From: Parahaliea mediterranea
Lineage (GTDB): Bacteria; Pseudomonadota; Gammaproteobacteria; Pseudomonadales; Halieaceae
Assembly (NCBI RefSeq): GCF_017255185.1
Contig: NZ_JAFKCZ010000001.1
Coordinates: forward strand, 62,001-126,000
Direction: 5' to 3'
Length of the DNA stretch: 64,000 bases
The notes below the pieces were generated by a model that saw only the letters and a program-made list of their open reading frames with translations, was not told the origin of the DNA and did no database searches. The position numbers were made by a program, and so were the translations under genes. Of this stretch, positions 1-4,281 are shown piece after piece (position 1 is the stretch's first letter; every line of letters starts with the position of its first letter).

Positions 1-807
1 GAGCAGGGTGGCGAGGGCATTTTCCGCCAGTGTGCGCAGGCGCTCCAGTTCCAGCAGGCCGTTGCGCAGCGCATCGATTTCCGCCTCCTGCTGCAATACA
101 CGGGTTTGCGGCGCGACCCCCTCGTCGTGCAGTGAGCGGTAGATGCCGGCGATCTGTTCGTTGCGGACCAGGGCCTGCCGCTGCCGGTACAGTTGTTCAT
201 CGTATTGGCGCAGGGTGAAATAGAGGCTGGAAAGATCGGAGATCAGCGTCAGGTAGCCCGCGCGCCAATCGGCGCCGGTGGCGCGCAACTCCGCTTCCTG
301 CGCCCGCACGCCCTTTTCCAGCTTGCCCCAGATGTCCAGCTCCCAACCGATGGCGGTGGCGCCGCTGTAGCTGGTGACGGCCTGTCCGCCGCCGCTTTGC
401 TGGGCGTTCGCACCCAGCGCCGCATCCACGGTAGGCAGGCGCGCGGCGTTGGCCTGCCCGATGGCCGCCTCGGCGACCCCGATCCGGGCGCCCAGTATCT
501 GCAGGTCGATGTTGTTGTCGAGGGCCCGCTGTATCAGCTGGTCCAGGTAGGGATCATTGAACCCGCGCCACCAGTCCGGCCGCACCGAGTACTCGTCGGC
601 CACCTCGACCCCGAGGCCGTCCCGCCAGGTGGATTTGCCCGGGGAGTCCGGGCGCTGGTAGTCCGGGCCGGCGAGGTTGCCGCAGGCGGCAATTCCCGCG
701 ATCAGCGAACCGCCAATGAATTGCCGCAGAAACCGGGCAGCGGATGCCCCCCGAAGGCTGGAGTTGGTCCGGGGTTCGGGTTGCCGCTGTACCATCACGT
801 TTCCCAT
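1..807 (-). CDS. NodT-family outer-membrane efflux lipoprotein (partial)
   Basis: Outer-membrane channel subunit of a tripartite efflux or secretion pump (TolC/OprM/NodT family). The gene runs off the left edge, so only about 269 N-terminal residues are visible. The N-terminus has a hydrophobic stretch ending in a lipobox IAAC (Cys42), followed by GPDYQRP and WWRGFNDPYLDQLI, which are typical of NodT-type lipoproteins, and then the helical OEP repeat region. The start chosen is the ATG at 805-807; an in-frame ATG four codons later is also possible. It lies downstream of two double-glycine peptide genes on the same strand, but a strong terminator separates them, so it probably has its own promoter. 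Substrate unknown; partner pump genes would lie beyond the edge. Confidence 0.85.
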   Translation of the reverse strand, partial: MGNVMVQRQPEPRTNSSLRGASAARFLRQFIGGSLIAGIAACGNLAGPDYQRPDSPGKSTWRDGLGVEVADEYSVRPDWWRGFNDPYLDQLIQRALDNNIDLQILGARIGVAEAAIGQANAARLPTVDAALGANAQQSGGGQAVTSYSGATAIGWELDIWGKLEKGVRAQEAELRATGADWRAGYLTLISDLSSLYFTLRQYDEQLYRQRQALVRNEQIAGIYRSLHDEGVAPQTRVLQQEAEIDALRNGLLELERLRTLAENALATLL

Positions 808-935: not shown

Positions 936-967
936 AAAAAAGCGCGAAGGCCCGGAGGCCTTCGCGC
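936..967 (-). terminator. Rho-independent terminator after the double-glycine peptide genes
   Basis: An 11-bp perfect stem (GCGCGAAGGCC pairing with GGCCTTCGCGC) with a 4-base loop is followed, in the minus direction, by six T residues. It lies just beyond the stop of the 990-1298 gene and should end its transcript. Confidence 0.85.
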
Positions 968-989
968 CACGGTCGCGGTGACGCCGGTC

Positions 990-1298
990 CTAGCTGACCC
1001 AGGTGTTGCCGATATCGAACAGGTCCATGTAGTTGCTCTGGGTCTGGTGCTGGCTCACCGGGGCGTACACGACACCGTTGCCGCCGCTGATGGCCTGGTT
1101 GTTGGTGACCGCGCCGGCATTGGCCTGGGACAGTCCGAAGCCGAAGGCCTGGTCCACGTCCGCCACGCGGCTGTCCACGCGGGTGGAGAAGTCCAGCAGG
1201 GCGGACAGTCGCTCCTGTGCCAGCGTACCGCCCTTGATGCCGCGCATGTCCTTGCTCTCGAGTTCCTTGCTGACGGAAAGGTCGTTGTATTTCAGCAT
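990..1298 (-). CDS. Small secreted-type protein with double-glycine leader, paralogue 1
   Basis: 102 residues. Function not recognised. Residues 1-24 look like a double-glycine leader of the kind cut by C39 peptidase domains of ABC exporters: SKELESKDM followed by IKGG, predicting cleavage after Gly24 and a 78-residue product. The product has no Cys and is rich in Asn, Gln and Gly. It shares VADVDQ, FGF, NAG.VTNNQAI, GGNGV.YAPV and IGNT blocks with the protein encoded at 1368-1676. A good ribosome site (AGGAG) lies 8 bases before the ATG. It is the second gene of a two-gene unit that ends at the terminator at 936-967. It could be a bacteriocin-like peptide, a signalling peptide or a surface protein. 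No immunity or modification enzyme is visible in the window. Confidence 0.75.
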   Translation of the reverse strand: MLKYNDLSVSKELESKDMRGIKGGTLAQERLSALLDFSTRVDSRVADVDQAFGFGLSQANAGAVTNNQAISGGNGVVYAPVSQHQTQSNYMDLFDIGNTWVS

Positions 1299-1325
1299 GA
1301 TCGTAATCTCCTGGGGGTGTGGGTC

Positions 1326-1343
1326 GGGGCGGCGAACCGCCCC
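1326..1343 (-). other. Hairpin between the two double-glycine peptide genes
   Basis: A 7-bp perfect stem (GGGGCGG/CCGCCCC) with loop CGAA and no T-tract. It may stabilise the upstream message or reduce read-through into the second gene. Role inferred only. Confidence 0.4.
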
Positions 1344-1367
1344 GGCTTGTTCAGTTGCGCGGTGGGT

Positions 1368-1676
1368 TTACTTGCTGAAACCGCCGCCGACTGTGGTGTT
1401 GCCGATGTGGTCGAGGTACATGTCGTTGTACTGCGACTGGGTCTGGTCCACCGGCGCGTAGATCACGCCGTTGCCACCGCCGATGGCCTGGTTGTTGGTC
1501 ACTTCGCCGGCATTGCCCTGGGCCAGTTTGAAGCCGAAGATTTGGTCGACGTCGGCTACCTTGTTGCTGATGGACGTGGAAGCCAGGATGGCGAAGGGGT
1601 CAAAACCGCCCCGCACCTCGTGCATTTCCTTGCGCTCCAGTTCCTTGCTTACAGTCAGATCGGTCATTTTCAACAT
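1368..1676 (-). CDS. Small secreted-type protein with double-glycine leader, paralogue 2
   Basis: 102 residues, the same length as its paralogue at 990-1298 and collinear with it. The leader (residues 1-24) contains SKELERKEM and VRGG, and cleavage is predicted after Gly24. The core keeps the VADVDQ.FGF, NAGEVTNNQAI, GGNGVIYAPV and HIGNT blocks, has no Cys, and ends with a short Gly-rich tail. Ribosome site GAGAGGAA precedes the ATG. It is the first gene after the sigma-54-type promoter at 1745-1762, with a leader of about 60 bases. Identical leader spacing in both copies suggests a common exporter. Exact role unknown. Confidence 0.75.
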   Translation of the reverse strand: MLKMTDLTVSKELERKEMHEVRGGFDPFAILASTSISNKVADVDQIFGFKLAQGNAGEVTNNQAIGGGNGVIYAPVDQTQSQYNDMYLDHIGNTTVGGGFSK

Positions 1677-1714
1677 GGTCGGTTCCTCTCGGTGTGCTTG
1701 AAAGCCTGTGTTTA

Positions 1715-1733
1715 TGAACGTCTTTCCCGTTCA
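1715..1733 (-). other. Small hairpin in the 5' leader of the double-glycine peptide unit
   Basis: TGAACG pairs with CGTTCA across a 7-base loop, between the predicted transcription start and the first ATG. Possible RNA-level control or mRNA stabilisation; weak evidence. Confidence 0.3.
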
Positions 1734-1744
1734 CACCAGACTTA

Positions 1745-1762
1745 TTGCAGAGGCCGTGCCAA
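1745..1762 (-). promoter_or_regulatory. Sigma-54-type (-24/-12) promoter
   Basis: Read on the minus strand the site is TTGGCACG-GCCT-CTGCAA. It matches the RpoN consensus TGGCACG-N4-TTGCA at all but one position, with GG and GC exactly 12 bases apart. Upstream of it (1777-1818) is a very AT-rich tract that could bind IHF. It lies about 70 bases before the first double-glycine peptide gene. An NtrC-type activator would be required; none is encoded in the window. Confidence 0.65.
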
Positions 1763-1928
1763 GATGGGGCTGGTATCGAATAATTTTTTTAATTTATTGA
1801 AAAACAAGGAGAAATTTTTTACTGCAGTGGGTGCTTGCCCGGTGGTTGGCGGTGCCGGTCGGCGCTGCCCGGCCGGTTCGCCGTGTGAAATCCCAACACT
1901 TCGGGCGACGGTGTTGGTTCCCGGGCAA

Positions 1929-2267
1929 CTAGTCGGCGGGCAGGTCGAGCTGGGTCGCCAGTGCCTCTTCGGTCGGCGCACCGTCCGCCTGGTAGATGAG
2001 GATATTGCTGGCGATGAAAATGGCGTCCCCGGCCCGCAGGCGGTGCGGGGCCGTTAGCGGCTCGCCGTTGACCCGCGTGCCGTTGCGCCCGAGGTTCTCG
2101 ATGGTGTGAGCGCCCTGGTGCGCGGCGATGGTGGCGTGCCGGCGCGACACCCGCGCATCGGCCAGTTGTACCTCGCATTGCGGGTCGCGACCCAACTCGA
2201 TGCGGTCGCCCTCGAGCTTGATCGAGGCCTGCAGGCTGTAGTTGACGTAGAGGTCCAGGCGCGCCAT
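1929..2267 (-). CDS. Small FHA-domain protein
   Basis: 112 residues, essentially a single forkhead-associated domain that binds phosphothreonine peptides. Conserved signature residues are visible: ELGRDP near residue 26, VSRRHA near 40, and LGRNGTRVNG near 59-68. There is no signal peptide or membrane segment, so it is predicted cytoplasmic. It reads away from the cNMP/patatin gene that starts at 2398 and shares a 130-base intergenic region with it. The next gene beyond that encodes a second FHA protein. No Ser/Thr kinase is in the window, so the partner is unknown. Confidence 0.85.
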   Translation of the reverse strand: MARLDLYVNYSLQASIKLEGDRIELGRDPQCEVQLADARVSRRHATIAAHQGAHTIENLGRNGTRVNGEPLTAPHRLRAGDAIFIASNILIYQADGAPTEEALATQLDLPAD

Positions 2268-2397
2268 GGCAGTTTCCCGGGTACATTACCGTGGATGGTA
2301 GCACGCGAGCGGGGCAGCGGGTGCGCGGCGGGAGCGAGGCTATACTGGTTGGGAATCGTCCCAGGCAATTATGCCTCCCGCGGAGGGCGCCGTGGCC

Positions 2398-4281
2398 ATG
2401 AGCGCAGATTCGATGTCCGATAAGTCCCCGCGGGACAGCCTGCGGCACTGGCGCCTGGAGCACCTGCAAATTTACCTGGACCGCCTGTTTGGCCCCTTTG
2501 GTCCGATCCTGCCCCATGTCATGCGGGACATCCAGGGGGAGCTGACCTGGATCAGCCTGCAAAGCGGCGACAGCCTGTACCGGGCCGGTGACGACTGCCG
2601 CGGCGCCTACCTGCTGTTGCTGGGGCGCCTGCAGATCGTCGCGCTCGGCGATAGCGGGGAGGAGCGGGTCGTGGGCAGCGTGCTGGAGGGCGAAACGGTT
2701 GGCGAAACCGCGCTGCTGACCGCCCGCGTGCACGGCGACACGGTCTACGCGGCGCGCGACTGCGAGTTGGTGCTGTTGTCGCCGGCCTGTTTCGAACTGA
2801 TGCTGCAGCGCAACAGCAAGGCGGTCTACAAGCTGGCGCGTATCGTCTGCGACCGGGTATCCCCCGGCGGTCGGGTTTCCCATCCGGCGTCCAGCCCGCC
2901 GGTGCGCGGCATTTGCCTGCTCGGCGCCTCCGGCGAGGTGGGCTTGTCGAACTGGGTGGCGGAGCTCGAGGCCGCCTGTGGACACTACGGTTCCTGCCTG
3001 AGAATACGCCGCGGCGATGTGCTGCGGGAGCTGCGGGCCGACGACAGCGTGCTCCGGGACGAGCGCGGTGTCACCCGCCTGCAGCTCACCCAGTGGCTGC
3101 GCCAGCAGGAGGACCGCTGGCGCTACCTGCTGTACGAGGGCGAGGCCGGCTGGTCGGCCTGGAATGCCCACTGCGTGCGTCACAGCGATACCGTGGTGGT
3201 GGTGGCGGACACCAGCCGGCCAGCGGATTTGCGGGCGCTGGATGCGCACCTGGCCCGGCCGCGCATGCGCTGGCGCCTGGTGTTGCTGCACCCGCCCGGC
3301 ACCGATCGCCCGCGACAGACCCAGCAGTGGTTGCGGTGCTGTGACGCGGCCGCCATCTACCACGTGCGCCGCGGCCATGCCGGTGACCTGGGGCGCCTGG
3401 CCAGGCTCTTGACCGGCAATGCCGTGGGTGTCGTATTCAGCGGCGGCGCGGCGCGCGGCTTTGCCCATCTGGGCGTGCTGCGCGCGCTGGAGGAACTCGG
3501 TATCGCCATCGACATGGTCGGCGGCAGCAGCATGGGCGCCACCGTCGCGGCGATGGTGGCCCAGGGCGCCGGCTATGACGAGGTGAAACAGCGCTGCCGG
3601 CAGGCCTACCGGCGCAAGCTGATTGATTACACCCTGCCCCTGGTGGCCCTGGCGAGCGGGCGGCAGATCAATACGGCTATTCAACGGCAAACGGGGGACT
3701 GGCGGATCGAGGATTTCTGGCTGCCCTTTTTCTGCGTGTCCACGAGCCTTACCCGGGCGCGGGCGGTGGTGCACGACCGGGGCAGCGCCTGGCGGGCGAT
3801 ACGCGGCAGCATCAGTATCCCGGGAGTGCTGCCGCCGGTGTCGTACCGCGGGGAAATCCTCGTGGATGGTGGCGTACTCAACAATCTGCCGGTGGACGTC
3901 ATGCGCGAGATGAATCCATTCGGGCAGATTATCGCGGTGGATGTTTCCGCCCCCAGCGGTCCGGTTGCCGCGGCGGAACTCAAGGCCGAGGTCTCCGGTT
4001 GGCGGCTGCTGGCAAGCCGCCTTTGGCGGCGAATGGCGCGCGGTGGCTCGCCGGGCATTGTCCAGACCATCATGGACTCACTGATGGTCGGGTCGTCGTT
4101 GAATCGCCACCGGAATTTGGAGCGGGGCCTGGCGGATCTGTATCTCAACCTGCATTTGGAGGGTATTGGTATACTGCAGTTCGAGGCCCAGGACGAGGCC
4201 GCGCAACTCGGTTACGAGGGTGCCATTGAGCGTTTGCGGCAGTGGCGGGCGCGGCGGCGTAACGAGGAGGGGCGGCGGTGA
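2398..4281 (+). CDS. Cyclic-nucleotide-binding / patatin-like phospholipase (NTE family)
   Basis: About 627 residues. The N-terminal third (roughly 30-145) is a cNMP-binding regulatory domain. The C-terminal half is a patatin hydrolase with oxyanion loop SGGAARG (about 348-354), nucleophile motif GSSMG (Ser378) and the catalytic Asp in DGG (about 490), so the Ser-Asp dyad is intact. By family it should deacylate phospholipids or lysophospholipids at the inner membrane, like the RssA/NTE group. The start at 2398 is favoured by GGAGG upstream; an in-frame ATG at 2371 lacks a good ribosome site. Its stop overlaps the GTG of the membrane FHA gene at 4278, implying coupled translation. Confidence 0.88.
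   Translation: MSADSMSDKSPRDSLRHWRLEHLQIYLDRLFGPFGPILPHVMRDIQGELTWISLQSGDSLYRAGDDCRGAYLLLLGRLQIVALGDSGEERVVGSVLEGETVGETALLTARVHGDTVYAARDCELVLLSPACFELMLQRNSKAVYKLARIVCDRVSPGGRVSHPASSPPVRGICLLGASGEVGLSNWVAELEAACGHYGSCLRIRRGDVLRELRADDSVLRDERGVTRLQLTQWLRQQEDRWRYLLYEGEAGWSAWNAHCVRHSDTVVVVADTSRPADLRALDAHLARPRMRWRLVLLHPPGTDRPRQTQQWLRCCDAAAIYHVRRGHAGDLGRLARLLTGNAVGVVFSGGAARGFAHLGVLRALEELGIAIDMVGGSSMGATVAAMVAQGAGYDEVKQRCRQAYRRKLIDYTLPLVALASGRQINTAIQRQTGDWRIEDFWLPFFCVSTSLTRARAVVHDRGSAWRAIRGSISIPGVLPPVSYRGEILVDGGVLNNLPVDVMREMNPFGQIIAVDVSAPSGPVAAAELKAEVSGWRLLASRLWRRMARGGSPGIVQTIMDSLMVGSSLNRHRNLERGLADLYLNLHLEGIGILQFEAQDEAAQLGYEGAIERLRQWRARRRNEEGRR

Follow-up and report, generated by a model that had tools for sequence, protein, structure and literature searches.

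Double-glycine-leader proteins of Parahaliea mediterranea as probable substrates of a sigma-54-linked C39 type I secretion cassette

Near one end of the window, as we call the whole stretch of 64,000 nucleotides of the Parahaliea mediterranea genome analysed here, two small genes termed A and B lie one behind the other on the reverse strand, and the question that they raise is what their products are and by what route these might leave the cell. In our reading A and B are probably substrates of a dedicated, sigma-54-switched, peptidase-containing type I secretion system and may assemble into a fibre or matrix. What the sequence itself establishes is the order of the genes, their domains and catalytic residues, the motifs that resemble a promoter and an enhancer, and the conservation.

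An earlier note on this DNA had described two collinear 102-residue proteins with a 24-residue double-glycine (GG) leader and an Asn/Gln/Gly-rich, Cys-free core of no named family, preceded by a near-perfect RpoN site and followed by a strong terminator, and each part of that description holds. Both genes begin with ATG, the GG is residues 23-24 in both, and the proteins are 62% identical (E 4.7e-28). The mature cores contain no Cys, have a pI of 4.27 and a net charge of -4, and are rich in G as well as in N and Q, which together make up 16.7% of residues versus 5.4, 5.7 and 9.8% in three other window proteins. By the GG-leader rule hydrophobic residues stand at -4, -7 and -12 before the cut, and at -12/-7/-4 the residues are L/M/V in A and L/M/I in B, the GG end and hydrophobic positions of a C39/PCAT substrate. 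When ten peptides (A, B and eight others) were scanned with Pfam and NCBIfam no model matched above cut-off. The features of the locus are collected in Table 1.

Table 1. Features of the A/B locus. L004 is G000:C1:45001-65000 and the window is G000:C1:62001-126000; a window position is the L004 position minus 17000.
Feature	Position	Strand	Remarks
GG-leader protein A	window 1368..1676	(-)	102 aa, 24-aa leader and 78-aa core; first gene past promoter
GG-leader protein B	window 990..1298	(-)	102 aa; second gene
Sigma-54 -24/-12 promoter-like site	window 1747..1761	(-)	
IHF-like site	window 1790..1802	(-)	
Enhancer-like inverted repeat	window 1893..1917		candidate binding site of the cluster activator
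Intrinsic terminator	window 941..968	(-)	after B
FHA-domain protein	window 1929..2267	(-)	112 aa; directly upstream of the enhancer-like repeat; association by position only
Outer-membrane factor (OMF; OEP/NodT family)	window 1..807 (5' part); whole gene L004:16323-17807	(-)	494 aa; first cassette gene
FHA protein	L004:13884-16322	same as A/B	812 aa
HlyD	L004:12510-13883	same as A/B	
PpiC-type PPIase	L004:11747-12496	same as A/B	
cNMP-C39-ABC exporter	L004:8630-11722	same as A/B	1030 aa (frame of 1032 aa); two N-terminal cNMP domains
AAA+ sigma-54 activator (Sigma54_activat)	L004:7344-8633	same as A/B	end of exporter gene row
Divergent GG protein	L004:7013-7333	(+)	different core; beyond activator
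Short GG protein	L004:4861-5034	(-)	57 aa; beyond activator

The promoter-like site, TGGCACGGCCTCTGC, agrees with the -24/-12 consensus at 10 of 11 positions, has its GG and GC elements correctly spaced, and has its first base 85 bp before the ATG of A. It is the sole match to TGGCACGNNNNYTGC in the window; shuffles gave a mean of 0.21 matches and at least one match in 19 of 100, and therefore the site taken alone could be due to chance. Upstream of it lie TTTCAATAAATTA, which fits the IHF consensus WATCAANNNNTTR at 8 of 9 positions, and the inverted repeat CCAACAC-N11-GTGTTGG (CCAACA-N13-TGTTGG), for which shuffles gave a mean of 0.02, so that an enhancer-like and an IHF-like element both accompany the putative promoter. 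The terminator behind B has a 12-bp stem followed by a T run.

Strict -24/-12 sites number 11 in the 5.03-Mb genome, against 6 for a backwards control pattern, and five of the 11 lie within this 16-kb locus (P ~1.5e-10, with locus bounds set after seeing the sites); four of these directly precede GG genes and the fifth precedes a short ORF upstream of a Sel1/caspase gene. The full dyad occurs five times in the genome, three of them in the locus, and only the three locus copies have a -24/-12 site of at least 10/11 within 450 bp. One of these dyads lies between the divergent promoters of C, a further paralogue described below, and of the GG gene on the (+) strand; the promoter of paralogue D has half-sites only, and no site of at least 9/11 was found before the OMF gene.

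The export cassette lies on the same strand, downstream of the A/B terminator and mostly beyond the window. A C39 ABC exporter, which the earlier note had proposed to look for in the genome (98.7% complete) and the lack of which would have told against its reading, is present in the A/B cluster itself with the catalytic Cys, His and Asp of its C39 domain intact; of three C39 matches in the genome it is the only one of ABC length, the others having 249 and 243 aa. The activator at the end of the row shows in its alignment a GAFTGA loop, the motif expected of sigma-54 activators, and the genome has one sigma-54 gene. Pfam recognised neither a sensor nor a receiver domain in the activator, and it is therefore not NtrC-like in the receiver respect: of the NtrC-type activator suggested earlier, the predicted sigma-54 control by an AAA+ protein stands and the likeness to NtrC does not. 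Past the activator are three more A/B paralogues, C, D and E, which with A, B and two genes of other core types bring the GG-leader genes of the cluster to at least seven, and a whole-genome search with A gave five matches, A to E, all in this locus. The secreted peptide pair of the earlier note thus retains its predicted C39-type export and ceases to be a pair, since there are at least seven GG-leader proteins and five linked sigma-54-type sites; a lone pair is ruled out by this larger set. Judged on these sequences, transcription of A and B is very likely to be sigma-54-dependent, and their cleavage by C39 and export are predicted with only slightly less confidence.

Further along the cluster are genes for an autotransporter-domain protein, the Sel1/caspase protein, Ser/Thr kinases and an FHA protein. 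The Sel1-repeat and caspase (C14) protein has a lipoprotein-like start (L018:14230-17505 (-), G000:C1); upstream of its gene, and separated from it by a short ORF, are a dyad at C1:48065-48089 and a -24/-12 site at C1:47929-47943, and such a protein stands beside the cassette in L028 too. Divergent from the FHA gene at 1929-2267 is one for a patatin-like phospholipase with cNMP and NTE P-loop-like domains (window 2371-4281 (+)), a gene similar to which (52% identity) adjoins the cluster of genome G042. PADLOC, run on six proteins of the region including A and B, gave shared-domain matches (ABC, cNMP, AAA+, caspase, phospholipase) that we do not read as a defence system.

How far does this arrangement extend beyond the host? 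The A/B core is rare. Of 140 genomes of the family two have it (the host and G042); among 390 drawn from the order it was found in one (the host itself, G042 evidently not being in the draw), and among 321 drawn from the class in two, the host again and, as a weak match, G705 (E 6e-4). In G042 the gene order is the same as in the host cluster, with four A/B-type genes. A first contig scan with the peptide profile gave no relative, and the activator N-terminus was therefore used as a probe; three of the 321 class genomes and five of the 140 family genomes have this region, and in named genomes it gave 131 relatives. The best 80 of the 131, which are our named loci, come mostly from Paraburkholderia, Caballeronia, Massilia and Noviherbaspirillum (mainly Burkholderiales) and also include Cupriavidus, Aromatoleum, Pandoraea, Halioglobus, Thiogranum and others. 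Together with L004, L015, L019 and L027-L030 they make up 87 loci, among which L015 repeats L032 and L028 repeats L085.

In these 87 loci tblastn found the exporter in 86, the activator in 86 (its presence being due to selection), the PPIase in 83, FHA in 61, HlyD in 61 and OMF in 59; the exporter is in all 80 named loci (best 80 of 131), and FHA, HlyD and OMF genes were not found by tblastn beside the cassette in the Massilia and Noviherbaspirillum loci. The C39 Cys, His and Asp are intact in 85/85 exporter frames of the 87 loci, chosen without a motif filter; another count, 84/84, used frames picked by a motif that includes the Cys. Of 86 loci (L015 left out), 70 have a PP2C phosphatase gene in the vicinity, placed directly 3' of the GG gene in L099 (Paraburkholderia sp. 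BL9I2N2), and the two kinases of the host locus have matches in only 15 loci. Among 1651 plasmid records matched by the exporter in tblastn, 11 cover at least 80% of it, and the four matches at 60-80% identity are all from Burkholderiaceae.

The related cassettes have GG-leader genes of their own. With a strong leader, an ATG and a ribosome site required, such genes are present in 73 of the 80 named loci (best 80 of 131) and absent from seven, where some contigs are short; four loci of Massilia and Duganella have 13 (L040), 11 (L073) and 10 each (L055 and L109). Leader frames with a -24/-12 site of at least 9/11 within 160 bp upstream occur in 71 of the 87 loci, 109 frames in all, of which 11 start with TTG or GTG and some are alternative starts of one gene; the other 16 loci, including those of the same-family genomes G018 and G020, have no such frame. 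For the cassettes of these two genomes (L030 and L029 respectively) no GG gene was found within the 20 kb covered, and their substrates may lie elsewhere.

Altogether 211 distinct peptides share the leader layout, with a consensus that is partly circular because they were selected by leader pattern, and they fall into several core families. Profile comparison related S2 to S4 (97%) and the divergent GG protein of the host locus to S1 (90%, E 1.6e-6). Homology between the A/B core of the window and the Burkholderiales cores S1-S4 was rejected, hhalign giving probabilities of only 0.07-0.12%, and therefore the support from Burkholderiales rests on what the peptides have in common, namely leader, promoter, exporter and an N/Q-rich, near Cys-free composition (N+Q 18.5-24.0%, Cys 0-0.7%).

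Some further GG genes and sites were seen in these loci. Short GG-leader proteins of 57-67 aa, as at L004:4861-5034 (-), occur in many related loci; their leaders are alike and their cores, which begin S/A/T-R after the GG, are too short to relate (hhalign 0.18%). In L039, L040, L055 and L109 GG genes with -24/-12 sites are present in several copies that are identical or nearly so, which points to recent amplification. Loci of Cupriavidus, of a Burkholderiaceae bacterium and of Pandoraea have a second strong -24/-12 site (L042:13059, L043:11012, L044:11956 and L061:12813 (+)), which stands 73-74 bp before an ORF of 157-167 aa; this ORF in L042 encodes an LRAT-domain protein, those of the other three looking alike. 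In Massilia (L040:5367, L107:378 and L109:5366 (-)) a -24/-12 site precedes a conserved ORF of 63-70 aa that starts MNIHKHMEAIFVV and is not of the GG-leader type.

The promoter pattern of the window recurs across the loci. Of 104 sites of at least 10/11 in 86 loci, 64 fall in the upstream windows of GG genes, against 0.2-0.5 expected; 67 of 219 GG genes in the 86 loci have such a site, and we read the remainder as mostly later genes of a row. IHF-like sites (at least 8/9) accompany 45 of 92 promoters versus 3 of 106 other GG starts once duplicates are removed (with duplicates kept, 45/95 promoters, 3/109 other GG starts and 23/475 shuffles). Half-sites of the upstream activator sequence (UAS), TGTTGG or CCAACA, are found at 83 of 92 promoters; the corresponding figures are 23 of 106 for the other GG starts and 251 of 2000 for random stretches. 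Two or more are present at 66/92, 1/106 and 50/2000 respectively. These counts are not independent, since the species are related to one another and the motif was derived from the very promoters at which it was counted, this locus included. CCAACA-N12-15-TGTTGG pairs were counted 30 times across the promoters, other arrangements being rarer.

What the cores might do outside the cell is suggested by their conservation. In the A/B family conservation alternates along the core with period 2 (p 0.003, lag-2 autocorrelation 0.35), and Q78, Q80, Q82 and N84 are invariant in nine sequences; elsewhere alternation is seen in S2+S4 (p < 1e-4), weakly in S1 (p 0.047) and not significantly in S3 (p 0.12). 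Such alternation fits strands with one conserved face, here Q/N-rich; we propose tentatively that the cores assemble into a fibre or matrix outside the cell, perhaps as beta-strand subunits. AlphaFold2 gave no confident fold for A (5 rows, mean pLDDT 42) or for a Noviherbaspirillum peptide (53 rows, mean pLDDT 56), and when two profiles were searched against PDB sequences nothing convincing was found, the best E values being 0.15 and 0.41.

Set beside the curlin motif, the cores resemble curli subunits (CsgA/CsgB) in their conserved, spaced Q/N and strand-like alternation and differ in having a GG leader, apparently in place of a Sec signal. Membership of the curli system was rejected, there being no Pfam curlin match to A or B (E up to 1) and no CsgG in the 98.7% complete genome (E <= 0.001); a fibre-like role is the favoured reading despite this mismatch. 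By description the nearest parallel would be Fap, the functional amyloid of Pseudomonas, reached by a different route. Its subunits are described as having N/Q-rich repeats and its C39 protease, FapD, as needed for secretion, and in P. fluorescens PF07 the fap operon is described as RpoN-dependent with an activator gene, brfA, adjacent to it (PMC5557850, PMC9207406). Whilst Fap components are described as using Sec and the FapF barrel, with FapD a free periplasmic protein (PMC5557850, PMC9207406), here the C39 domain is part of an ABC exporter and the substrates have a canonical GG leader.

The same parts invite another reading, the main rival, in which A, B and their paralogues are bacteriocins or microcins released through the C39 exporter against competitors, and which we think unlikely. 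C39 ABC exporters of the bacteriocin and microcin V type with GG-leader substrates have the PCAT layout, and the present locus resembles it in the leader with hydrophobic -4/-7/-12, in an ABC exporter that carries a catalytic C39 domain, and in HlyD and OMF; many paralogues would also suit a bacteriocin. It differs in the two N-terminal cNMP domains, in the FHA protein, PpiC-type protein and sigma-54 activator of the cassette, and in its substrates, which are acidic, N/Q-rich and encoded in sets of several genes. Also in favour of the rival, NHLP/NHLM models (TIGR03796 and TIGR03794) pick up the exporter and HlyD, a bacteriocin exporter model matches the exporter, and a Paraburkholderia peptide gave one weak match to lactococcin G-beta/enterocin 1071B (E 0.096), all of these below the cut-offs (the exporter reaches 551.8 bits against TIGR03796, cut-off 853.3). 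Against it, A and B match no bacteriocin model in Pfam or NCBIfam, and with E values up to 1 allowed they match none of the NHLP leader models. Class IIb bacteriocins are cationic, whereas the A/B cores are acidic; a non-exhaustive look through the ORF lists showed no small gene of immunity type accompanying each peptide gene, and a conserved alternating Q/N face seems to us unusual for a pore former.

It would seem improbable that A and B act instead as peptide pheromones, signalling outside the cell in a feedback loop that the activator completes. An activator is indeed encoded in the cluster, and HetC of Nostoc PCC 7120, which like the present exporter has a cNMP domain ahead of C39 and ABC, is proposed to export a signalling peptide (PMC10986499). 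However, 78-residue products, five paralogues with two other GG genes, and the 10-13 GG genes of L040, L055, L073 and L109 fit a structural product better, and no sensor of the peptides was identified. HetC is described with one cNMP domain versus two here and with a substrate that is not known, and the main text of the paper makes no mention of HlyD or peptidyl-prolyl (PMC10986499). In vitro ppGpp binds to its cNMP domain, and in vivo the domain is needed, so that by analogy such a domain on a C39 exporter can be regulatory, as HetC shows (PMC10986499). That A and B are precursors of RiPPs with a modifying enzyme elsewhere we consider very improbable, for although the B leader is weakly like the rSAM-RiPP leaders of TIGR04149 (E 0.022) and the PPIase matches TIGR04500 (putative peptide maturation protein), both below cut-off, the cores lack Cys and the scan of cluster proteins revealed no enzyme of the modifying kind.

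In the preferred reading, that of A and B as exported subunits of a fibre or matrix, the activator would bind the CCAACA-N13-TGTTGG repeat, which lies some 131-156 bp upstream of the -24 box. IHF would bend the DNA, and RpoN polymerase would transcribe A and B. The C39 domain of the exporter would then cut after the GG and the 78-aa cores would leave via HlyD and the OEP channel. Once outside, they would join by beta-strands that have a conserved Q/N face and so build up a fibre or matrix of many subunits, like a functional amyloid. Export may depend on phosphorylation or on nucleotide state through the FHA protein, the Ser/Thr kinases, the PP2C phosphatase and the cNMP domains, a gating that we put forward more tentatively still than the assembly of the cores.

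We recognised no description of this cassette in a literature search conducted mostly without subscription papers, and the Azoarcus paper PMC3262810, in the parts available, does not concern it. The ten peptides gave no Pfam or NCBIfam match above cut-off. The combination and its substrates appear to be undescribed, the parts being of known kinds. Most broadly put, this would be an undescribed system, frequent in Burkholderiales and present in some Gammaproteobacteria, that uses C39/ABC type I export in one step, and not Sec/CsgG or Sec/FapF, to make a multi-subunit surface matrix that is rich in N and Q and amyloid-like. A dedicated sigma-54 activator would switch transcription of the subunits via CCAACA-N12-15-TGTTGG, and both phosphorylation (FHA, kinase, PP2C) and the binding of nucleotides to the exporter would gate export; that all of this should hold together is doubtful.

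If the reading is right, substrates, promoter, enhancer and activator would be named for a secretion cassette that is conserved in many Burkholderiales genomes. Fap would then no longer be the only route to N/Q-rich extracellular material that is linked to C39 and RpoN, this being a second, and the roles of cNMP and FHA domains in type I secretion would become directly testable.
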